A stretch of 64,000 bases of DNA from Alphaproteobacteria bacterium (GTDB lineage Bacteria > Pseudomonadota > Alphaproteobacteria > TMED109), in assembly GCA_022824395.1 (NCBI GenBank), contig JAJDZX010000079.1, forward strand, positions 1-64,000, given 5' to 3'. The position numbers and the translations under genes were made by a program. The stretch's first letter is position 1, and each line of letters starts with the position of its first letter. Shown piece by piece: positions 25,136 through 48,013 of this stretch. Below the pieces are notes generated by a model. That model was not told where the DNA came from, ran no database searches, and saw only the letters and a list, made by a program, of their open reading frames with translations.

Positions 25136-27451
25136 ATGCAATTCGCAGCGCGATTTGCGAAACGGGTGCTCGCGGCCCGCTGGCTGGTCCTCTTGAGCTC
25201 GGTGTTTCTGGTGGCGGTCGCGTCGAGCGGCATCGCCCGCCTCGAGTTCTCCGCCAACTACCGCATCTTTTTTGACGACCACAATCCGCAGCTGCTGGCC
25301 CTGGAGGCGCTGGAGAACACCTACGGCAAGAACGAGAACATTGTTTTTCTGATCGTTCCTGATGATGGTGACGCCACTTCGGAAAGTGCGCTTTCGGCTG
25401 CCGTCTGGCTGACGGAAGCCGCCTGGTACACGCCGTATTCAAGGCGCGTCGACTCACTCGCCAATTTCCAATACACGACCGCCGACGGCGACGACCTGTA
25501 TGTGCGCGATCTGGTTGATCCCGAGGAATTGCCCCAAGCCGAAGTGCGATCGCGAATCCGGGACATTGCGCTGTCTGACCCACGTATCGCCGGTGCCATC
25601 CTGGGCCTGGATGGCAGTGTCAGCGTGGTCAACGTCACGGTCGAACTGCCGGATGAGGGCCAGTTGGAGGCGGTGGCCGAAGTGGCCGAGTTCGCCAGAA
25701 CGACTGCGGTGGAAGCGGAGGAACGCTATCCCGACGTTGACCTCCGCATCGTCGGCACGGTCATGGTCAACCAGACCTTCCTGGAAGCCTCCGTCAACAG
25801 CCAGAAGATATTCCTGCCCGCCAGTCTCTTGCTCATGGCCGTGATTCTAGGCGCCCTCACACGGGGTTGGGCGGGGGTGACGGCGACGGGCGCGGTCATC
25901 GTCTTTTCCATACTGGCGTCCGTGGGCTTGGGAGGATGGGTCGGCTTGCCGTTTTCCCCGCCGATCGCACCGGCACCGACCATCGTCCTGATGATCGTCG
26001 TGGCAAATTGCGTGCACCTGCTGGTCGCTCTGCAGCAGCGCCTCCACGCCGGGGAATCCAAGCACGATGCCATCGTCGAGTCCGTCAGGCTCAACCTGCA
26101 TCCGGTGTTTCTGGCGAGCCTCACGACGGCACTCGGATTCTTGAGCATGAACTTCTCCGAGGTGCCGCCATACCGTGATCTCGGCAACTTCGTCGCGTTT
26201 GGGATTGGCGCCTCCTTCGTTCTTTCTGTCACCTTTCTGCCGGCCCTGCTCTCACTGCTCCCCATTCGTGCTCCCAAGGAACGACAGCTCCCCGGCCCCT
26301 CGATGCACCGGTTGGCGGACACCGTCCTGCGCCACCGGAAGCCGATACTTTGGGGCTGGTTGGCAATTGTCGCCGCGATGCTGCTGGCCATCCCGCGCAA
26401 CGAGCTCAACGACGTCCTGGTGCATTTCTTTGACGAGAGCGTCGAGTTTCGTCAGGACACGGATTTCATGGACGCGCACCTGAGCGGCAACACCCTGCTC
26501 GAGTACTCGTTGGAAGCAACTGCCGAGGGCGGCGTCACCGATCCCGCGTTCCTTGCCGAAGTCTCGGACTTCGCCGACTGGTACCGCGAGCAACCCCCGG
26601 TACGCCACGTGTCGGTCATCACCGATACGTTTCGACAGCTCAACAAGAGCATGCACGGAGACGACCCGGCCGCCTACCGGATTCCGGAAAGCCAGGAGCT
26701 GGCAGCACAATATCTGGTGCTGTATGAACTCTCGCTTCCGCAGGGTCTGGACCTGAACAATCAGATCGACAGATCCAGGTCGGCGACCCGGATGACGATT
26801 TCCGCAGAGACACTTGACTCGCAGGAACTGCTAGCTCTGAACGCGCGCGCCGAGGCTTGGCTGACGGAACACGCGCCGCACGTATCCAGCGTCAACAGCA
26901 CCGGTCCTGCGGCACTGTTTGCCTACATCGGGCAGCGGAACATCCGCGCCATGCTGATCGGGACGGTGGTCGTGCTCGTGGCCATTTCCGCCATTCTGCT
27001 GTTCGCCTTGCGATCGCTGCGACTGGGGTTGATCAGCATCCTGCCCAATTTGATTCCCGCCGTGCTGGGCTTCGGCGTCTGGGGACTGACGGTGGGCCAG
27101 GTCGGACTCTCATTGTCCGTTGTGGTGGCCATGACCGTAGGCATCGTCGTGGACGACACGGTCCATTTTCTCAGCAAGTTCCGCCGAGCACGGCTAGAAT
27201 ACGGGCAGAGCCCGGAAGAGGCGGTGCGCTACGCCTTTGACACCGCCGGCCGGGCGCTGATCACGACGACGGTCGTGCTGGTGGCCGGCTTCTTGATACT
27301 TGTCTTTTCTCCATTCGTTCCCACTGCGCAGGTCGGGGTACTGACCGCGGTGATCATTGCCTCTGCGCTCGTCGCTGACCTGTCGCTCCTGCCGGCACTG
27401 TTGACGGCGACGGACCGGAGTTCTGCGAAGCGGACAAAGCTTGCAGCCTAA
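25136..27451 (+). CDS. RND/MMPL-family exporter, copy 1
   Basis: A 771-residue RND-superfamily protein of the MMPL/sterol-sensing type. It has one N-terminal helix, a periplasmic loop (about residues 40-220), a five-helix bundle with the motif LTTALGFLSMNFSEVPPYRD, a second loop and a second bundle (GIVVDDTVHFLSKFRRARLE). Such pumps move lipids or hydrophobic compounds and often pair with a LolA-like protein, one of which is encoded at 38910. It is a paralogue of the gene at 42490, with near-identical blocks such as DVLVH, TFRQLNKSMHGDDP and TTALGFLSMNFSEVPP. I chose ATG 25136; GTG 25112 is possible. It is likely the first gene of the cluster. Confidence 0.85.
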   Translation: MQFAARFAKRVLAARWLVLLSSVFLVAVASSGIARLEFSANYRIFFDDHNPQLLALEALENTYGKNENIVFLIVPDDGDATSESALSAAVWLTEAAWYTPYSRRVDSLANFQYTTADGDDLYVRDLVDPEELPQAEVRSRIRDIALSDPRIAGAILGLDGSVSVVNVTVELPDEGQLEAVAEVAEFARTTAVEAEERYPDVDLRIVGTVMVNQTFLEASVNSQKIFLPASLLLMAVILGALTRGWAGVTATGAVIVFSILASVGLGGWVGLPFSPPIAPAPTIVLMIVVANCVHLLVALQQRLHAGESKHDAIVESVRLNLHPVFLASLTTALGFLSMNFSEVPPYRDLGNFVAFGIGASFVLSVTFLPALLSLLPIRAPKERQLPGPSMHRLADTVLRHRKPILWGWLAIVAAMLLAIPRNELNDVLVHFFDESVEFRQDTDFMDAHLSGNTLLEYSLEATAEGGVTDPAFLAEVSDFADWYREQPPVRHVSVITDTFRQLNKSMHGDDPAAYRIPESQELAAQYLVLYELSLPQGLDLNNQIDRSRSATRMTISAETLDSQELLALNARAEAWLTEHAPHVSSVNSTGPAALFAYIGQRNIRAMLIGTVVVLVAISAILLFALRSLRLGLISILPNLIPAVLGFGVWGLTVGQVGLSLSVVVAMTVGIVVDDTVHFLSKFRRARLEYGQSPEEAVRYAFDTAGRALITTTVVLVAGFLILVFSPFVPTAQVGVLTAVIIASALVADLSLLPALLTATDRSSAKRTKLAA

Positions 27452-27493
27452 GCGCCTGCCCTGGTGAGCTTGATTGCAAGAGATCCGTACAAT

Positions 27494-27525
27494 TTGGAAC
27501 GTTTCTAGTCGAAACCGAATATAAT
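27494..27525 (+). promoter_or_regulatory. Possible promoter of the RiPP export/biosynthesis operon
   Basis: The 27452-27601 gap is strikingly A/T-rich for this genome. It contains a perfect tataat at 27520-27525 with ttggaa at 27494-27499, 20 bases upstream (longer than the ideal 17). An imperfect inverted repeat, gtttc/gaaac, lies between them and could be an operator. This is a visual prediction. Confidence 0.35.
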
Positions 27526-27601
27526 TTAATCGCAACCACATATAGTCATGCGCATCGGCACCCACACCGAATGAGATGTACTATGCTCTTGCTTGATCTT
27601 G

Positions 27602-28174
27602 ATGAGGCGGCGCCGGACGGTCGTGTTCAATAATCCATTTGATTCATTCCAAAATACTGTTGTCAAAGCGAAGGAAGAGCGTGAACGACTCGACCGGCTG
27701 CTGACAGTTTCCACACCCCGGGAACGTCTTCTCGTCGCTCTCATTGCACTGATGTTGTGCGTTCTCACGGCTTGGCTCTTCCTCGGCAACGTTGCGCATA
27801 GCCTCGCAGTCGACGGCGTACTGGCCGAGCCGGGGGAACACGCGGCAGCGGACGGGACGTCCGTGCAGGCGCTGGTCTGGATCGACAGCGGAGCTGCACC
27901 ACAACTCAGGGCCGGCATGCCGGTGTCGATGGAGCTGACCGCGGCGGATGGAGCCACGACCACAGTTGCCGGGGAGATCGGAACCATTGCCGCCGTGCCG
28001 TTGGCAGACGGAATTGCGGCGTTTGAAGCCGTGGTACCAGTGTCCGTGCACCGCTTCGATATCCTGCTCGATGAAGGTGTTGATGCTGCTTCGCTGGCGG
28101 GCATGGCATGCCGAATTGTCATCGAAACTGGCAGACGGCCCCTGGCCACGCTCCTGGGAATGAGGCGACCCTAG
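27602..28174 (+). CDS. Shortened HlyD-like adaptor of the NHLP peptide exporter
   Basis: A 190-residue protein in the position of the membrane-fusion (HlyD-like) subunit of nitrile-hydratase-leader peptide exporters. A cytoplasmic stretch (RERLDRLLTVSTPRERL) resembles the start of those proteins. One transmembrane helix follows (about residues 43-62), then a periplasmic part with a beta-barrel-like segment (AGMPVSMELTAADGATTTVA). Full-length homologues have a long alpha-helical hairpin and lipoyl domains; here they are absent. It may span only the inner membrane or depend on another adaptor. The stop is one base before the ABC gene at 28176. ATG 27602 is chosen; TTG 27593 and GTG 27623 are alternatives. 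Confidence 0.6.
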   Translation: MRRRRTVVFNNPFDSFQNTVVKAKEERERLDRLLTVSTPRERLLVALIALMLCVLTAWLFLGNVAHSLAVDGVLAEPGEHAAADGTSVQALVWIDSGAAPQLRAGMPVSMELTAADGATTTVAGEIGTIAAVPLADGIAAFEAVVPVSVHRFDILLDEGVDAASLAGMACRIVIETGRRPLATLLGMRRP

Positions 28175-28175
28175 G

Positions 28176-30386
28176 ATGCCCCCTCGCGCCCCCAGGAGGG
28201 CAAGCGAAAGTACCGCACCGGAGTCGTCGAAGCGAAGAGTAATCACGCCGGTTCTGTTGCAGATGCACGCGTCGGAATGCGGTGCCGCCTGTCTCGGCAG
28301 CGTTCTGGCCTACTTTGGGCGCTGGGTGCCGCTGACCGAGTTGCGCGAAAAATGCGAGGTGAGCCGAGACGGCTGTAGTGCGGCGAGCATCCTGCGCGCC
28401 GCCCGGCACTTCGGTCTCGTGTGCAATGGGCTAAGCCTTCGCACCGAGCAACTCAAATCGCTGCCGCTACCTCTGGTCCTGTTCTGGCAATTCAGCCATT
28501 TCGTCGTCCTTGAAGGATTCGACGGCCGCAATTTCTATCTCAATGACCCGGCTACGGGGCGACGCCGGGTTTCTGCCGAAGAGTTCGACAAGGACTACAG
28601 CGGAATTGCGCTGCGATTCAAGTGCGGCGATGACTTCAGAACCGGCGGCGAGCGACCCGGCTTGTTCACGCAATTGGGCACCTTGCTCGCGGGATCATGG
28701 AGTGTGCTTACCGGGGTGCTTGCCTGCGCTTTCATGTTGACGGTGCTGGCACTTGTGGTTCCGGTATCTCTCGGTGTCTTTGTGGACGATGTCCTGAACA
28801 ACCACGGGCCCTGGGGCGGGCTGGTGGCAGCTCTGATCGGTGGCGGCGTCCTGGTGTACGTCCTGTCCTTGCTGAAGCATCGGTTTCTCAAGCGGCTCGC
28901 GGTCCGGATCTCGGTGATCGGCTACAACCGGGGTCTGTCAAGACTGTTGCGGTTGCCGGTGGAGTTCTTCGATCACAGGCCAGTTGGCGACCTGACCCAC
29001 CGAGTTTCGTCTATCGACAGAATCGCGAAGAACTTGACGGACCAGTTTCTCGTTCTCCTCATCGACATGGCGATGAGCGCGGTGCTGCTCGTCGCGATGC
29101 TTACCTACGACATCCTGCTCACCCTGGTCGTGGTGTTGTTGGCCCTCCTGCACGGAATGATGGCCCACTTCCTCAACGTGCTCCGCACCGTCCAGAGCCA
29201 GGCGATGAGGCGCGAGCAGGGATTGTTGATCGGCTTTGGCATGCAGATGTTGAGTCATGCGGACAACCTGCGCACGACGGGCTCGGACGACAGGTTTTTT
29301 TCACGCTGGAGCGGGCAACAGGCACTCGAACTGCGTGCGCGCCAGCGCTATTCCGAACTGGGGTCCGTCAATGGCGCCCTCCCGGGTCTGATCGCCGTAT
29401 TTCGCAGTGCTGCGGTCTTGGGAATCGGAGCGAGCCTGGTCATGGCTGGAGAAATGACCCTGGGGACGCTGGTCGGGTTCTATGTCTTGGCGGAGATGTT
29501 TCTGGCGCCCGTAGGAAGATTCCTGGAGTTTGCCGACAAACGCCAGGCGCTCGAAACCGACTTGCAACGGCTGGAGGACATCTCCAATAGCGCGGAAGAC
29601 CCCGTCTTCAGCCGTCGAAATCCGGATGCCGAGACAATCCCAACGTTCAACGGCCGGCTTCAGCTTGCGGGCCAGATCGAGCTGCGGAATGTCACTTTCG
29701 GTTTCAACAAGAGTCGTCCGCCGCTGATCAAGGACTTCAACCTCGTGATCAGGCCAGGGCAACGGGTTGCCGTGATCGGTCCCAGCGGTTCCGGCAAGTC
29801 GACCCTCGTGCGTCTCGTTTCGGGGCTTTCTCAGCCGTGGTCGGGCGAGATCCTGTTGGACGGCCATCCGCGTGACGAGATTCCCGAGGAAGTGCAGCGG
29901 CGGTCGATTTCGATGGTGGATCAGGATGTCGTTCTCTTCTCCGCCTCCCTGCGTGACAACATCACCTTGTGGAACCCAGCTGTCCCGGACGAGGTCATCA
30001 TCGCCGCAACGCGTGATGCCTGCATCCATGACGAGATCCTGTTGAGGCCGCACGGATATTCGACCTTCGTCGAGGAAGGCGGGGTGAACTTCAGCGGCGG
30101 CCAGCGGCAGCGACTGGAAATCGCCCGGGCCCTGGTGGGTAATCCCACAGTCCTCATCCTGGACGAAGCGACCAGCGCACTCGATGCCGCGACGGAAGAG
30201 TACGTCGACGATGCCCTGCGGCGTCGCGGCGTCACCTGTCTGATCGTGGCTCACCGCCTGAGCACCGTCCGGGATTGCGACGAAATCATCGTGCTCGACA
30301 AGGGCGCCGAGGTGCAGCGTGGCACGCATGACGAGCTGATCGCTGACCAGGACGGTATGTATTACAAGCTGGTCAAGTCAGGCTGA
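28176..30386 (+). CDS. C39 peptidase-containing ABC exporter of the NHLP type (PCAT)
   Basis: A 736-residue transporter that should cut the leader from the peptide and export the core. The N-terminal C39 Cys protease has the oxyanion Gln29 and nucleophile Cys35 (LLQMHASECGAACLG), catalytic His in QFSHFVVLEGF and Asp in LNDPATG. A six-helix transmembrane domain follows, then an ATPase with Walker A GPSGSGKST, signature FSGGQRQRLEIARAL and Walker B VLILDEATSALD. C39 proteases cut after double-small motifs, fitting the Ser-Ala-Gly before the cores in the two precursors at 38301 and 42026. Its stop overlaps the next start (TGATG). Confidence 0.92.
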   Translation: MPPRAPRRASESTAPESSKRRVITPVLLQMHASECGAACLGSVLAYFGRWVPLTELREKCEVSRDGCSAASILRAARHFGLVCNGLSLRTEQLKSLPLPLVLFWQFSHFVVLEGFDGRNFYLNDPATGRRRVSAEEFDKDYSGIALRFKCGDDFRTGGERPGLFTQLGTLLAGSWSVLTGVLACAFMLTVLALVVPVSLGVFVDDVLNNHGPWGGLVAALIGGGVLVYVLSLLKHRFLKRLAVRISVIGYNRGLSRLLRLPVEFFDHRPVGDLTHRVSSIDRIAKNLTDQFLVLLIDMAMSAVLLVAMLTYDILLTLVVVLLALLHGMMAHFLNVLRTVQSQAMRREQGLLIGFGMQMLSHADNLRTTGSDDRFFSRWSGQQALELRARQRYSELGSVNGALPGLIAVFRSAAVLGIGASLVMAGEMTLGTLVGFYVLAEMFLAPVGRFLEFADKRQALETDLQRLEDISNSAEDPVFSRRNPDAETIPTFNGRLQLAGQIELRNVTFGFNKSRPPLIKDFNLVIRPGQRVAVIGPSGSGKSTLVRLVSGLSQPWSGEILLDGHPRDEIPEEVQRRSISMVDQDVVLFSASLRDNITLWNPAVPDEVIIAATRDACIHDEILLRPHGYSTFVEEGGVNFSGGQRQRLEIARALVGNPTVLILDEATSALDAATEEYVDDALRRRGVTCLIVAHRLSTVRDCDEIIVLDKGAEVQRGTHDELIADQDGMYYKLVKSG

Positions 30387-33331
30387 TGCAGGATTCGGGG
30401 TCGGAATACGTGTCGCTGGCAGCACTTGCCGCTCGCGCCGGTACATCCGTGCCGTGCGCCGGCAACCTGCCGGTACAACTCGACGATCCGGGTAGCGTCT
30501 GGTTCATCGATCAGGGGTCCGTCAATCTCTTCCTGGTCGAGTTCAAGGACAGGGTGCAACAGGCGGCCCCGCAGCATCTCCTCTGCTGCGAGGCGGGTAG
30601 GCTGATGCCGGGTGTCGCACCGGACGAACAAGACGAAAAAGACAAGGACACCACGCTCAGCATCGTTGCGAAGGGATCGCCGGGCACCCTCCTGAAACGC
30701 TTGCCGACATCCGCGTTGTCCGAGGTGCACCCAGCCGAACTGGCTGAACAGGCGGATACATGGCTGACTGCCATTACCGATACGCTTTCGCGCTATGCAA
30801 TCAGACTTCCTCGCCCAACCGCGCTCGCCGAACCTGGTCAAACGCTGACTCTGACCCCTTGCACGTTATCCGTTCGTCGCGGCGTGGCATGGGTATCCGA
30901 GCCGTCGCGCGGGGCAAGCCTGTTCATGGACATGGTCGACCAGGCGGAGCTTTCCGAAGCGAACGGCCTGCACAAAGCTGTCATTCCGCTGACCCGGACG
31001 AGCTGGCTCACCATGCTCGACAAAGCCACCCTTGCGGCCAAGTCAACGGAATCACTGGTGCGTCAGGGGGCGCTGCTGCCGGCGCTCGCCTCCTTTCACG
31101 CGGTGGCTTTCAACTTGGAACGCCTCAACCGCAGGTTGGCCGTGGTTGATGAGGCCAATCTCGAACGCGAGCGGACGACCAGCCGCCGCACCGCCGAAAA
31201 AGCGGCCCGACAACGGCTTTTCAACCTCTATGACCTGCCCATCGACCGCGGCGCCAACGTCGAGGACACCGCTCTGGTGGATGCCCTGAGAATCATCGGC
31301 CGTCATCAGGGCATCGATTTCAGGATTCCGGCGCGCTCCGAGTTGTCCAGTTCTCCGGTGAGCCTCCTCGATGTCCTAGATGCATCCGGCGTGCGCGCTC
31401 GGCGCGTGCGATTCGATGCTGAGGCCAGCTGGTGGCGGGGTGACAGCAACGCACTGCTGGCATTCCGTGCCGAGGATGGCCAGGCCGTTGTGCTGCTGCC
31501 GAGAACGTTCGGGGGTTACCGGGAGATCGACCCGGTCAGCAAGCGGAGTGTCGGCATTACAGCGGATCGGGCGGGTGCATTGCGGCAGGAAGCCTGGATG
31601 TTCTATCCGCCCTTGCCGCCTGGGAGCGCAACGCCGAAGGACCTCCTGAGAATTGCCCTGCGGGGGTCCGCCGGGGATTTGATGCGCCTGGTGATTGCCG
31701 GGCTTCCCGGCGGCCTGATCAGATTGCTGCCGGCACTCGCGCTCGGGTTCGTGGCAAACCACATAGCGGCGGGCGGAAGCGCCGATGCGATCTATGCCCT
31801 CGCGGCGACGTTGGCGGGGTTCGGCCTGCTAGGCGCAGTGCTGTACCTCCTTCAAAGCACCGCGTTGATGCGGCTCGAGGGACGCGCTGCATCACGGGTC
31901 GAGGCGGCCTTCTGGGACCGCCTCATGCGCCTTCCAACGAAACTCCTGCACCGCCATCCGGCTGGCGACTTGGCCATGTCGGGCATGACGTTCCAGAATC
32001 TTCGCGACGGATTGCAGGGAGTCGTCGCCGACAGCCTGGTATCGCTGATTTTCCTGCTTCCGGTATTTGGTGTCATCTTCTTCTACGACGCCACTCTGGG
32101 GATCATCGCCCTCGTCTTCAGTCTGCTCTCGCTGTTGGTCACCGTCGCCCTCGGGCTGCGCCAGGTTTCCCCCTACGGTCGGATGATCAGGACTGCTCGT
32201 CGAGTGGTTGGCCGGCTGTTCCAAATCGTGGGCGGTATCGCCAAGTTACGCGTGGAAAGCGCGGAAGGTTCGGCTTTTGCCATTTGGGCGCGGGACTATC
32301 GCGAGCAGAAGCGCGCGGAGCTTGAGTTGGGTGCGCTCGAGGGGCATTCGCGCGCATTCGGCGCTGCACTCCCGTTTCTTGCCGGTGGGGTGCTGCTGTT
32401 CGCCGTAGTAGCAGTGAGCGATCGGAACGTCCCGGTCGGCGATTTTCTCGTCGTGTACACCGTCTTCATCGTCTTCCAGTCCGCGGTCGCCCGGCTCGGC
32501 GAGTCCTTTGGCGCCATTGCCGCCATGCTGCCCGCGTTCGACCAGATGCGCCCGCTGCTTTCCGCAGTTCCTGAGACCGAAGTCGGGGGAGAGCCGGTCG
32601 AACGGTTGGGTGGCGAAATATTGTTCGATCGCATTTCCTTCCGGTACGACCCTGATGGCCCGCTGATTCTCGACGACGTCACCATTCACGCGCGTCCCGG
32701 GGAATTCGTGGCGATCGCCGGCGAATCCGGGGCCGGCAAGAGCACCTTGTTCAGACTCGCGCTTGGAGTTGACCAGCCGACCGCTGGCGCGGTGTATTAC
32801 GACGGACGTGATCTGAGGCACCTGAATCTGAAACAGGTACGCCGGAAAATTGGCGCTGTGCCGCAATCCGTTGGACTTCATCCTCAGGACCTCTGGGACA
32901 ACTTGGTCGGTCACCGCGAAGAAGTGGACAACGACGAGGTGTGGGCGGCAGTCAGGACTGCCGAAATTGAAGACGAGGTGAAGGCCATGCCGATGGGCAT
33001 GATGACCATGGTCGGCACCAGCGGGGCGGTGTTGTCCGGTGGCGAGAGTCAGCGGATCACGATCGCCCGCTCCGTGATCGGGCGCCCGCGAATCATGCTG
33101 TTCGACGAGGCGACCAACTGGCTGGACAACGAAAGTCAGGCGAAGGTCATGCGGAATCTCTCTGTCCTGACCTCCACGCGGGTCGTCATCGCCCACCGCC
33201 TGTCCACGCTGGAGCAGGCTGATCGCATCTACGTGTTGCAGGCCGGAAGAGTTGTACAAAGTGGCTCCTTCAGGGAATTGACGGCGGCTGAAGGAGCGTT
33301 CAGGGACCTGGTCAGGAGGCAGATTGCCTGA
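30386..33331 (+). CDS. Second NHLP-type ABC exporter (permease/ATPase, long N-terminal extension)
   Basis: A 981-residue half-transporter matching the second ABC protein of NHLP peptide systems. The first roughly 430 residues are a soluble extension without a Cys protease site, holding a cyclic-nucleotide-binding-like beta region. A six-helix domain and an ATPase follow (Walker A GESGAGKST, signature LSGGESQRITIARS, Walker B IMLFDEATNWLD). It probably forms a heterodimer with the C39 transporter, from whose stop codon it starts. The substrate is inferred from context. Confidence 0.9.
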   Translation: MQDSGSEYVSLAALAARAGTSVPCAGNLPVQLDDPGSVWFIDQGSVNLFLVEFKDRVQQAAPQHLLCCEAGRLMPGVAPDEQDEKDKDTTLSIVAKGSPGTLLKRLPTSALSEVHPAELAEQADTWLTAITDTLSRYAIRLPRPTALAEPGQTLTLTPCTLSVRRGVAWVSEPSRGASLFMDMVDQAELSEANGLHKAVIPLTRTSWLTMLDKATLAAKSTESLVRQGALLPALASFHAVAFNLERLNRRLAVVDEANLERERTTSRRTAEKAARQRLFNLYDLPIDRGANVEDTALVDALRIIGRHQGIDFRIPARSELSSSPVSLLDVLDASGVRARRVRFDAEASWWRGDSNALLAFRAEDGQAVVLLPRTFGGYREIDPVSKRSVGITADRAGALRQEAWMFYPPLPPGSATPKDLLRIALRGSAGDLMRLVIAGLPGGLIRLLPALALGFVANHIAAGGSADAIYALAATLAGFGLLGAVLYLLQSTALMRLEGRAASRVEAAFWDRLMRLPTKLLHRHPAGDLAMSGMTFQNLRDGLQGVVADSLVSLIFLLPVFGVIFFYDATLGIIALVFSLLSLLVTVALGLRQVSPYGRMIRTARRVVGRLFQIVGGIAKLRVESAEGSAFAIWARDYREQKRAELELGALEGHSRAFGAALPFLAGGVLLFAVVAVSDRNVPVGDFLVVYTVFIVFQSAVARLGESFGAIAAMLPAFDQMRPLLSAVPETEVGGEPVERLGGEILFDRISFRYDPDGPLILDDVTIHARPGEFVAIAGESGAGKSTLFRLALGVDQPTAGAVYYDGRDLRHLNLKQVRRKIGAVPQSVGLHPQDLWDNLVGHREEVDNDEVWAAVRTAEIEDEVKAMPMGMMTMVGTSGAVLSGGESQRITIARSVIGRPRIMLFDEATNWLDNESQAKVMRNLSVLTSTRVVIAHRLSTLEQADRIYVLQAGRVVQSGSFRELTAAEGAFRDLVRRQIA

Positions 33332-33423
33332 TCGGTCGACGCGGACTGGCCGGCAGGCGCCGTTCCGTAATCGTGATCGCGTGATTCACGGTGGGCCGGG
33401 CGCCGAGAACATGGAATCAGCCA

Positions 33424-38300: not shown

Positions 38301-38552
38301 TTACCAGCAGCAGCAGAGCCCGGCGGAGACCGCTTCGAGTTGCTCTTCGGTGATATTCGGGTCTGGCGGCAAGGCGACGTGCACCGTTTGCATGTCGCTC
38401 TCATGAATCTTGATATTCATTGAGGCGGGAATCGTGATACCCAGTTCCTCGCTGATGGTAGCCTTCGGGTCTGCCAGAAGCTGTTGCCGGAAGTCCGGAT
38501 CCAGCGCGGACTTGTCGACAATTTGCCGCAGCATATCATCGCCACTTCTCAT
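38301..38552 (-). CDS. Proteusin/NHLP precursor peptide A, predicted core LCCCW
   Basis: An 83-residue precursor. The leader resembles a nitrile hydratase alpha fragment: DPDFRQQLLADPKATISEEL, then ITIPASMNIKIHESD and VHVALPPDPNITEEQLE. It ends AVSAG then LCCCW. Cleavage after Ser-Ala-Gly by the C39 transporter would release five residues with three Cys and a C-terminal Trp, suited to YcaO heterocyclisation and tryptophan halogenation. The ribosome binding site is aaggag, six bases before ATG 38552. It is transcribed opposite to its neighbours from its own promoter. It is a paralogue of precursor B at 42026. Confidence 0.88.
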   Translation of the reverse strand: MRSGDDMLRQIVDKSALDPDFRQQLLADPKATISEELGITIPASMNIKIHESDMQTVHVALPPDPNITEEQLEAVSAGLCCCW

Positions 38553-38633: not shown

Positions 38634-38909
38634 GACTTGAATGGACAAAACCGCACGGTGAGCAGCGCCGGTTCCGTCCGGACGACTGGGGCTGCCCCTG
38701 CACGTCAGTGATATCCAAATGGACTATCGGGGTCCTCGAAGGAAGCTGTATCGGTCCGGGACCTACCGGTTGGTGGCACAAACATGCCCGTCGGATTCAA
38801 GTGCGCCAACGTGGCCACCACGCATCCACCCTCTCACGAACTGCTCCGAGTTCTCCGGGCATCGAGGTACGAGGTACAATGCACTATGCCCGTCACAATT
38901 CCCGTACGA

Positions 38910-39891: not shown

Positions 39892-41166
39892 ATGACAGTG
39901 CCAGGCAGTAAGTCCTTGCGGAAAATTGCGGTTGTCGGGCGTGGAACGGCAGGATCGCTGGCCGCTGCCAGCGTTACCAGTCTTCACCCTGACAGCGACC
40001 ACGAGCTGCACCACATCTATGACTCGCGCATTCCGGTTATCGGCGTGGGAGAAGGCAGCTGGCCAAGTCTCGTTCAGCAATTACAGAAACTTACCGATTT
40101 GCCGCACGAAACAGTCCAGCAGCGTTTGAACGGAACCCGCAAGTACGGCGTAGCATTCGAAGGATGGGGCCGGCGCGATCAAGACTTCACCCACTATTTT
40201 ACGCCGCAGCAGGTGTCCTACGCTTACCATCTATCCGCCGACGTGATGGCGGACTTGCTGCATGCCAGTACGCGCGCGCGCCACATCGACGCCAAGGTGC
40301 TCAACATCTCTAGGGTGGAGGATGGCGCGCTAGTGGAATTCGAGGGTTTGGCGCCGGAACGCTACGACCTGGTCTTTGATGCCCGGGGTTTTCCCAGGGA
40401 ACTCAGTACCGACCAGCACATTGACATTTCCTTCATCCCTACCAACACAGCTGTGATCCGTCGCTGTCCGGCAATCGTCAAGGACGGGGATACCGGGCCC
40501 GTGTTGCAACATACCTACACCCGTGCCGTGGCGCGCCCGCACGGGTGGATCTTTGTCATTCCGCTCACGGTGCACACGTCCTACGGCTACATCTTCAACC
40601 GCAATGTATCCAGCCTTGAGGAGGTCGAAGCGGACTTTGACAGGTTCCTTGAAGCTGGCGGCGTATCGAAATTCGAGCAACGCGCCGTCATCCAGTTTCC
40701 CAATTTTGTCCACCGTCAGATTTACGATGGCGCGATAGCACGCATTGGCAACGCGGCGGCCTTCATGGAACCCCTTGAAGCTACCGCAATCGTGTCCGCC
40801 CAATTGCAAATCGGGATGGTTCTTCATATCCGCCTTAATCGCCCGATTCAGCATCTGGAGCGAGACGCACCGGTGGTCAATCGGTTTCTCGTAAACAACA
40901 TGCTTTGCTACGGCCTGTTCGTCGGTTGGCACTATTCGTGCGGCTCCATGTACGACACCGAATTCTGGCGTTTTGCCCGAGACCGCGCTTGGCCACAGTA
41001 CCGGACGGCCGCTGCCCCGGAGGCGGTGGATTGCGCGGCGCTCGCCAAGTTCGACGAAATGATCGAACTGTTGAACCGGCCGGTTATCGACAAGGCGGAT
41101 TGGGACCGCATGTGTGCAGTCCCCCTCACCAGCTATGCCCAGATGTCTCAGGGTCTTGGCTGCTAG
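39892..41166 (+). CDS. Flavin-dependent tryptophan halogenase (probable peptidyl Trp halogenase)
   Basis: A 424-residue member of the tryptophan halogenase family, which uses FADH2, oxygen and halide to form HOX that reacts through an active-site Lys. The FAD motif is VVGRGTAGSLAAAS. The candidate catalytic Lys is K84 (TRKYGVAFEGWG). The usual WxWxIP motif appears as WIFVIP at W219. EPLEATAI at 293-300 matches the flavin/halide loop. Both precursors in the cluster contain one core Trp, so a peptidyl substrate is the natural inference. As I recall, a Trp-6 brominase from sponge-microbiome proteusin clusters has been characterised. No flavin reductase is encoded nearby. ATG 39892 is preferred over GTG 39859. 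Confidence 0.85.
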   Translation: MTVPGSKSLRKIAVVGRGTAGSLAAASVTSLHPDSDHELHHIYDSRIPVIGVGEGSWPSLVQQLQKLTDLPHETVQQRLNGTRKYGVAFEGWGRRDQDFTHYFTPQQVSYAYHLSADVMADLLHASTRARHIDAKVLNISRVEDGALVEFEGLAPERYDLVFDARGFPRELSTDQHIDISFIPTNTAVIRRCPAIVKDGDTGPVLQHTYTRAVARPHGWIFVIPLTVHTSYGYIFNRNVSSLEEVEADFDRFLEAGGVSKFEQRAVIQFPNFVHRQIYDGAIARIGNAAAFMEPLEATAIVSAQLQIGMVLHIRLNRPIQHLERDAPVVNRFLVNNMLCYGLFVGWHYSCGSMYDTEFWRFARDRAWPQYRTAAAPEAVDCAALAKFDEMIELLNRPVIDKADWDRMCAVPLTSYAQMSQGLGC

Positions 41167-42025: not shown

Positions 42026-42280
42026 ATGCAAACCGCTGAGGAATTGAATGCGTACCTGATGCAGAAAGCTGCCGAGGACGAAGACTTCCGGGCTCAGCTT
42101 GTGTCCGATCCCAAGGGGGTCCTGAACGATCAGTTCGGGATCACTGTTCCGGACAACATCCAGATCAAGGTGCATGAGAGCGACCTGCAGACCATTCATC
42201 TTGCATTGCCGCCGTCCCCGGTACTGAATGAAGAACAGCTTGAAGCGATCTCTGCCGGTTGGTGCTGCTGCGGAAATTGA
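42026..42280 (+). CDS. Proteusin/NHLP precursor peptide B, predicted core WCCCGN
   Basis: An 84-residue precursor similar to precursor A along the whole leader: DEDFRAQLVSDPKGVLNDQF, ITVPDNIQIKVHESDLQ, IHLALPPSPVLNEEQLE. It ends AISAG followed by WCCCGN. Cleavage after Ser-Ala-Gly would give a six-residue core with an N-terminal Trp and three Cys, the mirror of precursor A, where Trp is last. The strong ribosome binding site agggagg precedes ATG 42026. It lies just downstream of the pcaH relic and upstream of the second RND exporter. Confidence 0.9.
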   Translation: MQTAEELNAYLMQKAAEDEDFRAQLVSDPKGVLNDQFGITVPDNIQIKVHESDLQTIHLALPPSPVLNEEQLEAISAGWCCCGN

Positions 42281-42489
42281 CGTAGCGCTGGCGCGGCGGT
42301 CCCGGCGAAGCCGGAGCCGCTGCGGCCTCAGCTGACGTGCACTTGCGGCGCGAGCGGTAAGCGCTGGCATCGGGTGCTGCAGGCTGCCGGTGATTTGTCA
42401 GGCTGTAATTGTCGCAGCCGCATGGCGGAAGTGCTGAAAACGGGTGTGCGCGCCCGCCCGTGAGGCGATCGCGTGGGGCGGGCACGAGC

Positions 42490-44940
42490 ATGGCAGAAAA
42501 GTCCGAGCTACCGGCCCTCAAGTTCGAAGAACGGTGCGCCCGGTGGGTGGTCGCAGCCCGCCGATCCGTCATCGCAGTCGTCTTGATCTTGGTTCCGTTG
42601 GCCGGAAGCGGCTGTCTGTTTCTGAATGTCTCGAGCGACTACCGAATATTCTTCAGCGAGGACAACCCCGAGTTGCAAGCGTACGAAGCGCTGGAAAGCA
42701 CCTACGGGAAGACTGACAACATCCTCTTCATGATAGTTCCGGAGAGTGGCAATGCCACGTCGGAACAGGCGCTCGAAGCTTTGGTTTGGATTACCGAGCG
42801 CGCTTGGCAGACGCCGTATTCGATGCGCGTCGATTCGATGGCAAATTTCCAGCACATTACTGCGGATGGAGATGAATTATCTGTACGGGACCTCGTGGAC
42901 CCGGCGCTGTTGGGCCGAGAGCAGGAACGCATCCGGATCCGTGAAATCGCACTGGCTGACCTCGGGCTCGCAGGAAGTCTGGTGGCTCGAGACGGAAGTG
43001 TCAGTGCCGTCAACGTGATCGTCGAACTGCCCGAAAAAGATCAGGCAGTTCGGGTGCCTGAGGTCGCCGGATTTGCCGAGAGGGTCGTCACGGAAGCGGA
43101 AGAAAGGTTTCCAGGTATCGGCGTTCGCGTGGTCGGAACGGTGATCATCAACCACGCCTTTTCGGAAGCATCGATTTACGACCAGAAAGTATTTCTGCCT
43201 GCAAGCCTCGCGGTCATGATCGTGATCCGCTCACTCCTGACCCGGAACGTCGCGGGTGTCGGGACGACGGTGCTGGTGGTTGTCTTCTCAGTCATCGTGT
43301 CGATGGGGCTCGGCGGTTGGGTCGGTTTGTCCTTATCGACTCCCACTGCCCCGGCGCCGAGCATCGTGATGATGATCGTGGTCGCCAACTGTGTGCATCT
43401 GTTGGCCGCCTTGCGGCAGCGCTTGCGTACCGGCGATGCCAAACGCGCGGCAATCATCGAGGCTGTAAGGGTCAACCTGCATCCGATCTTTCTGACCAAC
43501 CTGACCACTGCCCTCGGTTTCCTGAGCATGAATTTCTCTGAGGTTCCGCCGCACCGCGATCTCGGTAATTTCGTGGCATTCGGCATCGGCGCCGGGTTTC
43601 TGCTCTCGATCGCCTTCCTGCCCGCGTTGCTGTCACTTCTGCCGATGCGTACACCGGCCGCTACGGAACGCGCCAATCCGACGATGGCAGCCATTGCCGA
43701 ATTCGTCGTGGGCCGACGGAAGGTCCTGATGTGGGGATCTGCAGTGGTCGTGCTTGCCCTGGCGGGAGCCATCCCGCGCAACGAGCTGAACGACGTCCTG
43801 GTGCACTCCTTCGATGAGCGTACCGAACTCCGTCAAAATACCGATTTCCTGGACAAGCGGCTAAGCGGCACCACGCAGCTCGAATACTCGTTGGTGGCGG
43901 CCCGGCCGGGAGATGTGACGGACCCGGCCTTCCTCACAGAAGTGGCGGTCTTCGCCGACTGGTATCGCGAACAACCGGAAACACGGCACGTCGAGGTCAT
44001 TACCGATACCTTTCGGCAGCTCAACAAGAGCATGCATGGTGACGATCCGGACGCCTATCGCCTTCCAGCCAACCAACAACTCGCCGCGCAATACCTGTTG
44101 CTCTACGAGTTCTCGCTGCCGCAGGGTCGCGACCTGAATGACCGCATTGACCCCACTCGATCTGCGACCCGGATGACGGTGACCACGCAGACGCTGTCGT
44201 CGCAGGATGTCATTGATCTGAACAGGCGTGCCGAGGCCTGGCTTCGGGTCAATGCATCCCACATCGCGCATGTAGACAGCGCCGGTCCGGCGCTCCTGTT
44301 TGGGCATATTGGCCAGCGGAGCATCCGGGCGATGCTGGCCGGCACCCTGGTTGCGCTTCTTGGTATTTCCTTCGTTCTTCTGTTTGCGTTGCGTTCACTT
44401 CGGCTGGGAATAGTCAGCCTTGTACCGAACTTCGTGCCTGCAATCCTGGGATTTGGCGTTTGGGGCCTGATGGTAGGGCAGGTGGGGCTCGCGTTGTCTG
44501 TGGTGGTGGCCATCACGATCGGAATTGTGGTCGACGACACGGTGCATTTCCTGAGCAAGTACCTGCTCGCCCGGCGGGAGCACAACGCCTCCGCAGAAGA
44601 CGCCGTCCGCTACGCGTTCCGGACCGCCGGGCAGGCGCTTGCCACGACCACGGCCATCTTCGTGGCCGGTTTCCTCATTCTGCTGTTCTCACCGTTCATC
44701 CCGACTGCTCAAGTTGGTCTGCTTATCGCGATGATCATCGGGTTCGCGTTGGTCGTTGACCTGACGTTCTTGCCGTCATTGCTCATGGCTGTAGATCGCG
44801 GTCACGGTGTCGCTGGGGATCCATCGGTGCCGTCCCGCGGGACGGGAGGTCACCTCTCGGATCGAGGTCCCGGCATGCGTGGTGCTGGCAGCGAAAGCCG
44901 TTCTTCCAAGCTGCAGCACTGGAATCAGCCTGGGTCATGA
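42490..44940 (+). CDS. RND/MMPL-family exporter, copy 2
   Basis: An 816-residue paralogue of the exporter at 25136, with the same two-bundle topology. Shared blocks include YRIFF, STYGKTDNILFMIVPE, LTTALGFLSMNFSEVPP, TFRQLNKSMHGDDP and GIVVDDTVHFLSKYLLARRE. It differs by a roughly 40-residue C-terminal tail rich in Gly, Ser and Arg that the first copy lacks. Start ATG 42490. Its stop overlaps the methyltransferase start (ATGA), so the two are translationally coupled. The cargo could be the RiPP product or a protective lipid. Confidence 0.85.
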   Translation: MAEKSELPALKFEERCARWVVAARRSVIAVVLILVPLAGSGCLFLNVSSDYRIFFSEDNPELQAYEALESTYGKTDNILFMIVPESGNATSEQALEALVWITERAWQTPYSMRVDSMANFQHITADGDELSVRDLVDPALLGREQERIRIREIALADLGLAGSLVARDGSVSAVNVIVELPEKDQAVRVPEVAGFAERVVTEAEERFPGIGVRVVGTVIINHAFSEASIYDQKVFLPASLAVMIVIRSLLTRNVAGVGTTVLVVVFSVIVSMGLGGWVGLSLSTPTAPAPSIVMMIVVANCVHLLAALRQRLRTGDAKRAAIIEAVRVNLHPIFLTNLTTALGFLSMNFSEVPPHRDLGNFVAFGIGAGFLLSIAFLPALLSLLPMRTPAATERANPTMAAIAEFVVGRRKVLMWGSAVVVLALAGAIPRNELNDVLVHSFDERTELRQNTDFLDKRLSGTTQLEYSLVAARPGDVTDPAFLTEVAVFADWYREQPETRHVEVITDTFRQLNKSMHGDDPDAYRLPANQQLAAQYLLLYEFSLPQGRDLNDRIDPTRSATRMTVTTQTLSSQDVIDLNRRAEAWLRVNASHIAHVDSAGPALLFGHIGQRSIRAMLAGTLVALLGISFVLLFALRSLRLGIVSLVPNFVPAILGFGVWGLMVGQVGLALSVVVAITIGIVVDDTVHFLSKYLLARREHNASAEDAVRYAFRTAGQALATTTAIFVAGFLILLFSPFIPTAQVGLLIAMIIGFALVVDLTFLPSLLMAVDRGHGVAGDPSVPSRGTGGHLSDRGPGMRGAGSESRSSKLQHWNQPGS

Positions 44941-45806
44941 CCAACGACGCTTCGAACCAACCTGCCAAGGAGGCACAGCCGGAACTTTCTGTCCCCGACC
45001 TCTACACGGCGATAACGGCAGCGATGGTTGTTGCAAACGAGGGTCTGCTGTCGTGCCATTTCGGCCTCTGGGGGCCGGACACAGAGACCGACCGTGAGGC
45101 CTTGCTGCGGGCTAATCGTGTGCTGACTGGAGGATGCAACCTTGAACCGGGAATGCGCTGTCTGGACGCTGGCTGCGGCGTGGGGGGTACGGCGATCTAC
45201 TTGGCCGAAACGCACGGAGTACACGTCACGGGATTGACCAATTGTGCGCCGCATGTCGCCGTAGCAGCAAAGCTGGCGGAGCAGCGAGGGGTCGGCCATC
45301 TGGTCGAGTTTCGTCACGGGGACTTCATGGATTTGCCGTTCGCCGACGCGAGTTTCGATGTTGTGCTCAATCACGAGTCCTTCTGCTACGCGCTTGACAA
45401 GGTGGCCTATCTGCAGGGTGTCCGCCGGGTGCTCAAACCTGGTGGGCGGTGGCGGGCCCTGGAAGGGTTGCTAAGTGGTCAGCCGCTGTCATCGGAACTG
45501 GAAAGGGTCCATGCGCGCATGCGGCAGGGCTTTTGCATGCCGCCGCTCGTTACGTGGCGCCAGGTACTCGCAGACCTCGAGAAAGCGGAATTCGAGGGCG
45601 GGGAGGCGAGGAAGCTGGATGCCGAGGTAGCGCCGTCGACGCGCGCCACCAGGAACAACTGGCTGCTGTACCTGTTTGCGAGTCCTCCCTTGGGCAAAGA
45701 GCGGCAACCATGGCTCAGATTCATGCAGGCAGCGCTGGACTTCCATGAGGGGCTGCGCCACGGCGTGTTCACGTACAGGCTGCTGTCCGGCCGAGGACCT
45801 CCCTAG
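44937..45806 (+). CDS. Class I SAM-dependent methyltransferase 1
   Basis: A 289-residue Rossmann methyltransferase. Motif I is CLDAGCGVGGTAIYLA, the acidic region HGDFMDLPFADASFDVVLNH and motif post III RRVLKPGGRW. It resembles the tocopherol/sterol-type small-molecule methyltransferases. It is coupled to RND copy 2 by a 4-base overlap, so it belongs to the cluster. A substrate within the peptide (N- or C-terminus, Cys or Trp) or a lipid is possible; the sequence does not tell. Confidence 0.82.
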   Translation: MTNDASNQPAKEAQPELSVPDLYTAITAAMVVANEGLLSCHFGLWGPDTETDREALLRANRVLTGGCNLEPGMRCLDAGCGVGGTAIYLAETHGVHVTGLTNCAPHVAVAAKLAEQRGVGHLVEFRHGDFMDLPFADASFDVVLNHESFCYALDKVAYLQGVRRVLKPGGRWRALEGLLSGQPLSSELERVHARMRQGFCMPPLVTWRQVLADLEKAEFEGGEARKLDAEVAPSTRATRNNWLLYLFASPPLGKERQPWLRFMQAALDFHEGLRHGVFTYRLLSGRGPP

Positions 45807-45896
45807 AGTCCGTCTGCGTCACGGGACGTTGGACGTTCGTGATGGCGACGGCACGCTGGCGGAGAGCAGGTTGCGCAGGGCTGGCGGGCGGGTTTC

Positions 45897-46844
45897 TCAC
45901 TTCTTCGCACTGTAGCGCCTGATTTCAAAATAACCGCCTCGCCAAGCAGCGTACAATCGGCCGATCGATTCCATCAGGTTGAGAAACGGCGGCGTCCGAA
46001 ACCCGCTGAAGTACATAAGCGTAAGATTGCGATAGTCATTCTCGATGATTTTCAGGTTGTCCATTTCCTTCCCGCCGAAACCCTCAAATTCCATGATCTC
46101 CAGGCCTGCCTCCTGCAGCTTGCGGGTGTACGTGGCTTGGCATTCCAAACTCACCATCGCCCATGACTCGCAGACTGGCCGGATGAATTGGTCGTACTGT
46201 TCGGTCGACAAGTGGTCCCGAGCCATCCAATCCATGGCAACGATTTTTCCGCCGGGCTTGAGGATTCTCTGAACTTCGCGAAGAAATCGTTCCCGATCGC
46301 TGTAGTGGCAGGCACTCTCGATATTGACCACGACGTCAATTGTGTTGTCGGCAAAGGGCAGGCCCTGGCAGCAGTCCGCGTATTGGAGACTGACCCGGTC
46401 GGCAACACCCGCATCGACCACCTTCTTTTCCGCAATCTCCAATTGGAGCCGGTTCAGGTTCACGCCAGTGACTCTGCAGCCACGTGCACCTGCGAGACGA
46501 ATGGCGGTACCGCCAACGCCACACCCCGCATCCACCACGTGATGGTGTTCCTCGATCACGGCAGGTTTGACCACGACGTCAATCATGCGTTCCACCGCTC
46601 TTGCCACCCCTGCCGAATCCCGGGGCTTTTTGCCTGGCTCGGGCAGCTCTCCCGGCTCGAATAGCCCAAGATGAATATGGTCTCGGTTCCAGCCGTTCAG
46701 ATAGAACTTCTCGGTCATGCTGGTGTAGTGGCGCTCGACTGCGCGCATGTGATCAACGTCGTGCGGTCTCGGCAAGTTGCTCTCCCATCTGCTTACGCGC
46801 TCAGAAGTTTTCGGATGAACGTATCCAGCCGGCTCTGGCCGCAT
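45897..46844 (-). CDS. Class I SAM-dependent methyltransferase 2
   Basis: A 315-residue methyltransferase. Motif I is VVDAGCGVGGTAIRLAG, with YADCCQGLPFADNTIDVVVN and RILKPGGKIVAMDWMARD. The sequence GLFEPGE upstream and FEGFGGKE downstream fit the tocopherol/geranyl-diphosphate methyltransferase-like group. It shares motif I with methyltransferase 1 but is otherwise distinct. It follows X2 on the minus strand by 48 bases, so the two are cotranscribed and probably act in sequence. Confidence 0.82.
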   Translation of the reverse strand: MRPEPAGYVHPKTSERVSRWESNLPRPHDVDHMRAVERHYTSMTEKFYLNGWNRDHIHLGLFEPGELPEPGKKPRDSAGVARAVERMIDVVVKPAVIEEHHHVVDAGCGVGGTAIRLAGARGCRVTGVNLNRLQLEIAEKKVVDAGVADRVSLQYADCCQGLPFADNTIDVVVNIESACHYSDRERFLREVQRILKPGGKIVAMDWMARDHLSTEQYDQFIRPVCESWAMVSLECQATYTRKLQEAGLEIMEFEGFGGKEMDNLKIIENDYRNLTLMYFSGFRTPPFLNLMESIGRLYAAWRGGYFEIRRYSAKK

Positions 46845-46891
46845 TGTCGGCTGTAGAGATCAGGCACGAGTACCGCACGATCGATATTCGT

Positions 46892-48013
46892 CTAGGACGG
46901 TGGTGCGGCGGTCATCGCCATGAAGGGATAGGCCTTGACTTGCGCAATCCGGTTTCCGATCAGCACGAGCTTGATGTGGTGGATGCCCCGCACCAGCACG
47001 AACGCCCCAGATGTACCGAATAGTGTCGTGGGTCGTGGCGACCATGCGGCGAGCGCCTCCAGTTTCTCCGGGACCGCGAGATTTTCCTGGCGCAATCCAT
47101 CGATGAAGGGTGTCCACTGATCGGGGCGGTCCAGCCAATAGCTCGGGTCGCCGGCTACGCGGTGCTTGACGACGAAACTCAGCCCTACTAGCGAAGAACC
47201 CAGTCCGTCTGCCCGTACGTCGATGTGAACCCCGAGGCTCACAAAGCCCCCGCGTTTTTCCAGACCGGATGCCGTGGAAAGGACCGCCCCCTCGCGCCAG
47301 CCAGCCCGCTCGAGAAACACCGCAATGTCGTGCAGCGACCGAAAACCGGTAACTGCCAGCCGAATGGCTCGATCGCGCGCGGGAAATGCGCCGAAGGAAT
47401 CGATGCGCGTGCCTGCTGGCTGCGCCAAGTGCACTTGTTCGGCCATCCGGCGCTCGGCAGCATCGAACCTCCACCCCGCCGCGGAGACCAGGGCGGTTAG
47501 CACGACACTGATATCTCGCAACCGCTCGTCATTGCCGCCGCCCATGATGGGTCGTTCGGCCGGCCGCAGGAAGATTCCAGGGGCTGGATCCGCGCCGACC
47601 GGTGCTGACCCAATGTCGTATTCGAGCATCATCTTGCGGCCGACCACCCGACCAAGATGAGAGTCGGCCTGTTCAGTTTCGTGCAGCAGCTGGACGATTC
47701 CGGAGACGATGGGATCTGCATTTCCGGACCGGACCAGGTCTTCGAAGTGCGCGGCCGATCCGGTTCCGCCAACCACCGACACGCCGAGGTCGGCTCCCGG
47801 ACGGTCCTCGTGCAGCGGCAGTTCAAAGCCGAAGGGTAGGCCGGCCATGCTGACGGGGAGCTTCCGGGCGCGTCCCAGGAGCTGCGCCCATTCGCGATCT
47901 CCGACCAGCACGGGGGAAATGTGGTTGCGGAGCCGGGCCAGCAACTCCCCCAGGGAACCTGCTTCGCAGGAAAGGCGCTCCTGCGTGACGACCAGTCCTG
48001 CCTCGAAGTCCAT
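46892..48013 (-). CDS. Unknown protein X2, paralogue of X1
   Basis: A 373-residue homologue of X1 (37077), conserved over the whole length: GELLARLRNHISPVLVGDRE, LPFGFELPLHED, GRKMMLEYDIGSAP, IFLRPAERPIMG, ENLAVPEKLEALA, SPRPTTLFGTSG and LVRGIHHIKLVLIG. ATG 48013 gives a length matching X1 and has gagg upstream; the open frame to 48154 is not conserved. Function unknown. Its pairing with a methyltransferase and a second precursor suggests X2 serves precursor B as X1 may serve precursor A. Confidence 0.75.
   Translation of the reverse strand: MDFEAGLVVTQERLSCEAGSLGELLARLRNHISPVLVGDREWAQLLGRARKLPVSMAGLPFGFELPLHEDRPGADLGVSVVGGTGSAAHFEDLVRSGNADPIVSGIVQLLHETEQADSHLGRVVGRKMMLEYDIGSAPVGADPAPGIFLRPAERPIMGGGNDERLRDISVVLTALVSAAGWRFDAAERRMAEQVHLAQPAGTRIDSFGAFPARDRAIRLAVTGFRSLHDIAVFLERAGWREGAVLSTASGLEKRGGFVSLGVHIDVRADGLGSSLVGLSFVVKHRVAGDPSYWLDRPDQWTPFIDGLRQENLAVPEKLEALAAWSPRPTTLFGTSGAFVLVRGIHHIKLVLIGNRIAQVKAYPFMAMTAAPPS

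Follow-up and report, generated by a model that had tools for sequence, protein, structure and literature searches.

An srp proteusin cluster with a prenyltransferase-like protein and a leader-tagged terpene cyclase: probable prenylation and terpene cyclisation of a brominated thiazoline peptide

The srp clusters make a proteusin, a ribosomally synthesised and post-translationally modified peptide (RiPP) with an NHLP leader, and in the described pathway the core LCCCW of SrpE receives three thiazolines from SrpC and a bromine from SrpI (PMC10858898), a halogenase for which residues Lys84, Tyr102 and Tyr110 have been named (PMC10286304). The leader motif L(X)4L is required by SrpI, and also, together with leader helix 1, by the YcaO protein MprC (PMC12455567). 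Our subject is a cluster of this type in 64,000 nucleotides of an Alphaproteobacteria bacterium (assembly GCA_022824395.1, contig JAJDZX010000079.1, positions 1 to 64,000; the whole stretch is called the window), in which the srp genes are accompanied by a prenyltransferase-like protein, U1, and by a terpene cyclase-like protein with an NHLP leader-like domain, FUS. With a probability of roughly 0.6, we consider that this cluster, besides forming thiazolines and adding bromine, also attaches a prenyl group to the C-terminal Trp of its peptide and cyclises the terpene.

Precedents for such chemistry exist in other RiPP families. NctPC is an ABBA prenyltransferase fused to an MstE-like cyclase, which places a C20 chain on Trp that is then cyclised (PMC13290415); the NctPC/ChrPC maturases and the window share an ABBA prenyltransferase domain (that of NctPC) and an MstE-like cyclase domain, but in the window prenyltransferase and cyclase are separate proteins, an NHLP domain is attached to the cyclase, and a short azoline proteusin ending in Trp serves as substrate. 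The mpp lanthipeptide cluster has, like the window, a halogenase (MppI), an ABBA prenyltransferase (MppC) and a terpene enzyme, the terpene synthase MppD (PMC12715784, PMC11791876), and differs in its Nif11-like leader and LanM macrocycle, with no leader-fused cyclase mentioned in the available account; both comparisons, with NctPC and with mpp, are by description only. PalX is an NHLP peptide whose conserved C-terminal Trp, a feature shared with the window precursor, is prenylated by PalQ (PMC10853753), but PalQ belongs to the isoprenoid synthase superfamily rather than to the ABBA enzymes, and no cyclase partner is mentioned in what was available. The srp descriptions themselves, which share with the window the LCCCW core, the YcaO protein, the NHLP leader and the Lys84/Tyr102/Tyr110 halogenase, cover azoline formation and bromination only, and to these the window adds the prenyltransferase-like and leader-cyclase proteins. 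Two papers that mention srp or SrpI (PMC9426513, PMC12615548) contain no word starting with "prenyl", PMC9505594 does not mention srp, and the available part of PMC12858407, which cites the srp paper, does not contain "prenyltransferase"; among the papers listed by literature searches, no title dealt with prenylation or terpene cyclisation in an srp cluster, which is not to claim that none is in print. Given the NctPC and mpp precedents, the kind of chemistry is known, and what looks new is the split, leader-tagged variant of a prenyltransferase-cyclase maturase within an srp cassette.

Judged by its sequences, the window cluster is an srp proteusin cluster. Precursor 1 ends in SAG-LCCCW, with a core identical to the published SrpE core; the YcaO protein scored above the cut-offs of both the SagD-type model TIGR03604 (274.7 bits) and the leader-binding model TIGR03882 (137.2 bits); and the halogenase, numbered from the ATG at 39892, has Lys84, Tyr102 and Tyr110 in the published numbering of SrpI. 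The likeness to the srp proteins was judged by the core, these residues and the family profiles. The original prediction, made from the letters of the window, had pointed to a peptidyl Trp brominase from sponge-microbiome proteusin clusters, and the shared core and the three residues at SrpI positions bear that link out. It had also spoken of extra, undescribed steps; these are probably a prenylation by U1 and a terpene cyclisation by FUS.

FUS consists of an NHLP leader-like domain (about residues 8-90) and a cyclase-like domain (about residues 113-433), the latter a class II terpene cyclase of the drimenol-synthase/MstE-like kind. The best Foldseek matches of its AlphaFold2 (AF2) model, which had a predicted local distance difference test score (pLDDT) of 80.5, were drimenol synthase (E 7.2e-12) and MstE (target template modelling score, TM, up to 0.67). 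A profile of the FUS family only reached drimenol synthase (4.8e-6) and, weakly, cyclases of the squalene-hopene cyclase (SHC) type (0.0061 and above) and did not reach MstE; one built from ten cyclase domains, distant ones included, reached an SHC-type cyclase at 1.1e-34 and MstE at 2.3e-31. The FUS motif D209-L-D211-S-T aligns with D-A-D-T-T of MstE, whose structures, by their PDB titles, hold prenylated dihydroxybenzoates, and the second Asp of the motif is invariant in all ten cyclase domains. A plain squalene-hopene cyclase was rejected as an identity for FUS on the strength of the NHLP domain, the RiPP operon and the best folds. In an alignment of the window protein with 49 of its 79 listed relatives (n=50), mean pairwise identity was 63% over residues 8-66, 29% in the linker and 74% in the cyclase domain, so that the folded part of the leader is kept. 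In L(X)4L, however, Arg takes the place of the second Leu in 49/50 and Gln in 1/50, compared with Leu or Met at the same position in 64/64 precursors. Most likely, a copy of the substrate leader has here become a docking module: the loss of the motif is observed, and the docking role is proposed. Against TIGR03793, whose cut-off is 50.9 bits, the NHLP domain of FUS scored 45.3 bits and that of a second FUS of the same genome, on contig C85, scored 53.8 bits; an ordinary precursor was nevertheless discarded as an explanation, given the lost L(X)4L and the sub-threshold score of the window copy. A plasmid search with FUS gave two weak matches, one of them a long protein amid glycosyltransferase genes.

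U1 is probably built like an ABBA (PT-barrel) prenyltransferase, short of proven membership. Its AF2 model (pLDDT 92.3) has five helix-helix-strand-strand repeats, and Foldseek matched it to 83 PDB entries at E<=1e-3. Going by title, or for the AmbP3 entries by the identity of that protein, every one of the 50 listed is an aromatic, indole or phenazine prenyltransferase, for example EpzP (E 2.5e-7) and DMATS1 (TM 0.57-0.58). The fold search ruled out a YcaO- or E1-like protein. Charged residues are invariant or nearly so in 15 U sequences (E64, D75, D133, R211, R216, H345, K347, K359); ABBA enzymes use residues of this sort to bind the acceptor and the diphosphate. The wider U alignment comprised the two window copies and 48 of 66 listed relatives.

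The C-terminal residue of the precursors suggests where such an enzyme might act. In three clusters that combine U with a leaderless cyclase, 12 of 13 precursors end in Trp (11/11 in genome G261) and the other in Tyr. Neither residue ends any of 17 NHLP precursors from G033, G162 and G260 of the same class, a set that leaves aside locus L139, where the FUS leader is cut by the contig end, and includes a control genome, G162, with U fusions elsewhere; nor any of seven precursors from clusters that have U and lack a cyclase (LCCCF, RCCC, one ending in GCM and four LCCCG), a set apart from the second precursors of FUS-bearing loci; nor any of those second precursors (window, L003, L046 and L064; 0/4). 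All these sets are small and related. LCCCW is kept in L009 and L011, where no SrpI-type halogenase was detected, so bromination does not seem to be the only reason for keeping the Trp. A TIGR03793 survey of one phylum matched 59/398 genomes, with only the window's own above the cut-off, and was unusable as a control for the C-terminal residue.

A scan based on FUS found 94 relatives, of which 80 loci in other genomes were kept, at 61-94% identity. With its sequences found again at so many loci, a good number of which also keep the core gene order, the cluster is not a chance assembly. By record title the loci come from Alpha- and Gammaproteobacteria, Nitrospirales, Acidobacteria, Gemmatimonadetes, Binatia, Opitutales, Latescibacterota and Nitrospinota, presumably at least eight phyla, and most are apparently from sponge bins, to go by isolate names. 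Co-occurrence was counted in the 38 loci with full 10-kb flanks, all of which have FUS by selection, the other 42 of the 80 having shorter flanks. U and a precursor were present in 38/38, with LCCCW in all and a second core in three; ABC2 in 36, ABC1 in 35, YcaO in 34, the HlyD-like protein in 33 and the halogenase in 31; MMPL in 18, which makes it accessory, LolA in 13 and a methyltransferase in one. The original prediction, which would have fallen had precursors, YcaO and halogenase never co-occurred in related genomes, thus withstands the comparison (38, 34 and 31 of 38 within 10 kb of FUS). Of the seven full-flank loci that lack a flanking halogenase, five have one elsewhere in the genome, and the genome records of L009 and L011, of completeness not given, yielded no SrpI-type halogenase at E<=1e-30. 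The 42 shorter-flank loci have YcaO in 31, U in 29, a precursor in 21 and a halogenase in 14. Among 385 sampled genomes of the class, precursor 1 was found at >=86% identity in eight, the window's own genome (G000) among them, and U, cyclase and halogenase were each present in 8/8. In 200 genomes of a second phylum, that of the L027 genome, titled Gemmatimonadales, a precursor at >=76% identity occurred in 16, accompanied by U (>=62% identity) in 13, with an internal stop in that of G855, and by the cyclase in 12; the cyclase was found in 0/20 genomes of that phylum without a precursor. Four further genomes there have precursors 48-55% identical with LCCCG cores, a protein closer to U2, the second U copy of the window, and no cyclase. 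Three loci (L014:11339-13771, L012:11451-13862 and L078:11344-13761) have a protein of about 800 residues between FUS and YcaO, which combines a fatty-acid-desaturase domain with a GlnE-like stretch. Further loci show this gap too, and such a gene is absent from the window.

U and cyclase appear from their sequences to belong together, also in distant single-protein forms. In three genomes (L111, L113 and L114) a U domain, detected by the srp-type U profile at E 6e-6 or better, precedes a cyclase-like domain in one protein of 720-735 residues. Against Pfam SQHop the cyclase-like domain exceeds the cut-off in L113, scores 24.3 bits against a cut-off of 26.1 in L111 and matches no family in L114. 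Both L111 and L113 have an HPrK-like gene as neighbour, L113 an asparagine-synthase gene as well, the HPrK matches being below the Pfam cut-off; such neighbours are typical of lasso peptide clusters. Three neighbours of L114 gave neither match. In G366 and G185 a leaderless cyclase adjoins U, and no YcaO was found in the stretches searched around these two and the similar NHLP cluster of G261. In that last cluster (L102, 6.3-11.9 kb) the 11 Trp-ended NHLP precursors lie around U, with the leaderless cyclase 8.5 kb on. U-family proteins also occur near LanM/Nif11 and lasso-type genes. A weak U match (L175, E 2e-5) on the Pseudanabaena plasmid pPg_03, near LanM and Nif11 genes, lies inside a protein annotated as a 2OG-Fe(II) oxygenase.

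In the pathway that we propose, the substrate would be the SrpE-type leader-LCCCW precursor, in which YcaO would turn the three Cys into thiazolines and the halogenase would brominate the C-terminal Trp, as others have shown for SrpC and SrpI. U1 would attach an isoprenoid (C10-C20) to that Trp, and the cyclase domain of FUS, with D211 as general acid, would close the chain into rings, while its NHLP-like domain would dock as a copied substrate leader. The order of these steps is conjectural, as is everything about unit 2, the second gene group of the cluster. C39 exporters remove leaders and export products, and the one encoded here would presumably do both. A bolder version of this proposal, in which the cluster is a widely transferred sponge-symbiont cassette for brominated tris-thiazoline polycyclic-terpenoid peptides and the degenerate-leader cyclase, by docking on the leader site of the prenyltransferase or of YcaO, replaces the covalent prenyltransferase-cyclase fusion of related maturases, is tentative and has in our estimate less than an even chance.

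Several observations weigh against prenylation and terpene cyclisation by U1 and FUS. The U1 TM-scores are moderate (0.38-0.60 among the 50 of 83 matches listed), U1 matched no Pfam or NCBIfam family, and a profile of 15 diverse U proteins against PDB sequences had 11 matches up to E=10, none a prenyltransferase, so that the ABBA assignment rests on the fold of one AF2 model. The FUS motif is DxDS and not the canonical DxDD, although MstE, with DADTT, departs from it likewise. The FUS cyclase profile did not match L111, L113 or L114 at E<=1e-3, and with about 20% identity to the FUS cyclase their second domain is of the same superfamily without being a close relative. Mirror-tree correlations did not single out the pair FUS-U1 (r 0.50; FUS-YcaO 0.71, U1-halogenase 0.79, U1-YcaO 0.53, YcaO-halogenase 0.39, FUS-halogenase 0.34). 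L050 has FUS and, over the 10 kb before it and the 3 kb after it, none of the other cluster genes, and the U of G364 is split between two contigs, with an internal stop in one of the two pieces. In the second phylum U is missing from 3/16 and the cyclase from 4/16 precursor-bearing genomes (G804, G843, G855 and G954). Assembly gaps may explain part of the missing cyclases, since in the last three the precursor lies 63-473 bp from a contig end, but the U of G855 sits on a different contig, which yielded no cyclase either, and the precursor of G804 lies 4.3 kb inside its contig, again with no cyclase found. Trp-less cores (LCCCG, RCCC and LCCCF) are still accompanied by a U-family protein, so the family need not act on Trp, and SrpI acts on the C-terminal Trp without any prenylation (PMC10286304).

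There are three alternatives. U1 might prenylate another site, a Cys thiol, the N-terminus left by leader removal or the C-terminal carboxylate, with FUS cyclising that chain, and such sites are prenylated in linear cyanobactins. A Cys run is present in all but one precursor of the azoline-type clusters, Trp is absent from several U2-type cores, U2 is paired with methyltransferases in unit 2 and a U-methyltransferase fusion exists; yet the U and cyclase clusters without a CCC core share an aromatic C-terminus (13/13 Trp or Tyr), and LCCCW persists in L009 and L011, which lack a detected SrpI-type halogenase, so that we regard a non-Trp site as unlikely. FUS could instead be itself a secreted substrate, its NHLP domain directing export and cleavage by the C39 exporter and its cyclase working outside the cytoplasm. 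The N-terminal position of the leader-like domain and an invariant Gly78 (50/50), where precursors have the Ala-Gly before the core, would fit, but among the 50 sequences Gly78 is preceded by Thr in 40, by Ala in 7 and by Gly in 3, L(X)4L is lost, and the prenylated peptide that the cyclase would need ought to be made in the cytoplasm; this is decidedly improbable. We give equally little credence to U1 and FUS being non-catalytic or serving a separate terpenoid, which would leave a brominated tris-thiazoline peptide as the sole product: the available accounts describe SrpE maturation with YcaO and halogenase only (PMC10858898, PMC10286304), but U and cyclase keep conserved acid and base residues, U is retained in every full-flank locus, the 80 loci extend over what we take from their titles to be at least eight phyla, and U-family proteins also accompany LanM/Nif11 and lasso-type genes.

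Prenylation of Trp and terpene cyclisation would have practical consequences. The srp product has so far been described as a brominated thiazoline peptide, and the available texts held no report of a mature compound; the addition of a cyclised C10-C20 isoprenoid would greatly change the mass and polarity to be expected, so that sponge extracts could be searched for a defined target. RiPP enzymes would also be brought together in a new manner if one of them bears a degraded leader copied from its own substrate, and with the U family the range of ABBA-type peptide prenyltransferases would come to include NHLP, Nif11 and lasso-type clusters.

The cluster occupies about 25.1-48.2 kb of the window (Table 1) and is confirmed with all the genes first noted. 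Its unit 1 has MMPL1, the short HlyD-like protein, the C39-ABC exporter, ABC2, FUS, YcaO and U1 in a plus-strand run with spacings of -1 to 141 bp, after which come precursor 1 on the minus strand, the LolA-like gene and the halogenase; unit 2 comprises precursor 2, MMPL2, MT1 and, on the minus strand, MT2 and U2. The prediction had listed these parts well: both of its short NHLP precursors exceed the TIGR03793 cut-off, its ThiF-YcaO is upheld by the two models named above, its tryptophan halogenase, two MMPL/RND pumps, LolA-like protein and two methyltransferases are backed by Pfam, and its two copies of one protein are U1 and U2 (49% identical). Its C39 and second ABC exporters have NHLM_micro_ABC1 and ABC2 as best matches, slightly under the curated cut-offs, its HlyD-like protein is present with a partial TIGR03794 match below cut-off, and its cyclase-like fusion is FUS, which bears a third NHLP domain at its N-terminus. 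Topoisomerase I and RNB-type ribonuclease genes form the left flank. An Rfam search of the window had a tRNA as its sole match. At the right border, window positions 48621-52581, are aromatic-catabolism genes (protocatechuate-dioxygenase-like, lyase, flavin adenine dinucleotide (FAD) monooxygenase).

Table 1. Genes of the srp-type cluster, with positions in the window (SAM, S-adenosylmethionine)
Feature	Position	Strand	Evidence
MMPL/RND exporter 1 (MMPL1)	25112..27451	+	Pfam MMPL 1.8e-32
Short HlyD-like protein	27593..28174	+	TIGR03794 over 52 positions only, 20.8 bits against cut-off 156.2
C39 peptidase-ABC exporter (ABC1)	28176..30386	+	best match NHLM_micro_ABC1 TIGR03796, 837.8 bits, just below curated cut-off 853.3
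Second NHLM-type ABC exporter (ABC2)	30386..33331	+	best match TIGR03797, 666.3 bits, just below curated cut-off 709.4
FUS, NHLP leader-like and class II terpene cyclase-like domains	33424..34725	+	motif D209-L-D211-S-T
ThiF/RRE-YcaO cyclodehydratase (SrpC-type)	34749..37067	+	PF02624 2.9e-96
U1, ABBA (PT-barrel) prenyltransferase-like	37077..38195	+	AF2 model, Foldseek
Precursor 1 (SrpE-type), leader and core LCCCW	38301..38552	-	TIGR03793 67.8 bits
LolA-like protein	38784..39782	+	PF17131 2.9e-60
Flavin-dependent Trp halogenase, SrpI-type	39892..41166	+	PF04820 1.1e-42; K84/Y102/Y110, WIFVIP, EPLEA
Precursor 2, leader and core WCCCGN	42026..42280	+	TIGR03793 71.1 bits
MMPL/RND exporter 2 (MMPL2)	42409..44940	+	Pfam MMPL 3.5e-32
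MT1, SAM methyltransferase	44937..45806	+	Methyltransf_11 1.7e-21
MT2, SAM methyltransferase	45897..46844	-	Methyltransf_11 3.4e-22
U2, second ABBA prenyltransferase-like	46892..48154	-	49% identical to U1; homologous stretch 46898-48013

Unit 2 is probably a second prenyltransferase unit with methyltransferases and without a cyclase of its own, which would borrow the YcaO and the exporters of unit 1. The two-unit reading of the original prediction gains from two other genomes of the same genus, in which a set of precursor, MMPL, methyltransferase and U2-like genes recurs in clusters with their own exporters, with both methyltransferases in L104 and with MT1 only in L105. A parallel to the pairing of U2 with methyltransferases is seen in L112:8878-10740 (G162), where a U domain is joined to a SAM methyltransferase near an asparagine-synthase gene. 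AgeMTPT-type methyltransferase-prenyltransferases act in linear cyanobactins, where a methyltransferase and an ABBA prenyltransferase work on short thiazole peptides, an enzyme pairing like that of unit 2 with a different leader class. The second precursors of L046 (19630-20622) and L064 (19646-19915) have the core MCCCGI, with no aromatic residue, and the genome records of these two loci contain no MT1-like gene at E<=1e-40. The window's own genome has further copies. A third, distant U-like protein of 398 residues (L097, G000:C46, 3.7-4.8 and 13.9-15.6 kb of the locus) is separated by about 9 kb from a second YcaO and a gene for outer-membrane efflux, with five of the seven neighbouring frames scanned lacking a Pfam match, and a second srp-type cassette (L098, G000:C85:1-7367), with HlyD-like, ABC1 and ABC2 genes and a FUS 74% identical to that of the window, fills a short contig.

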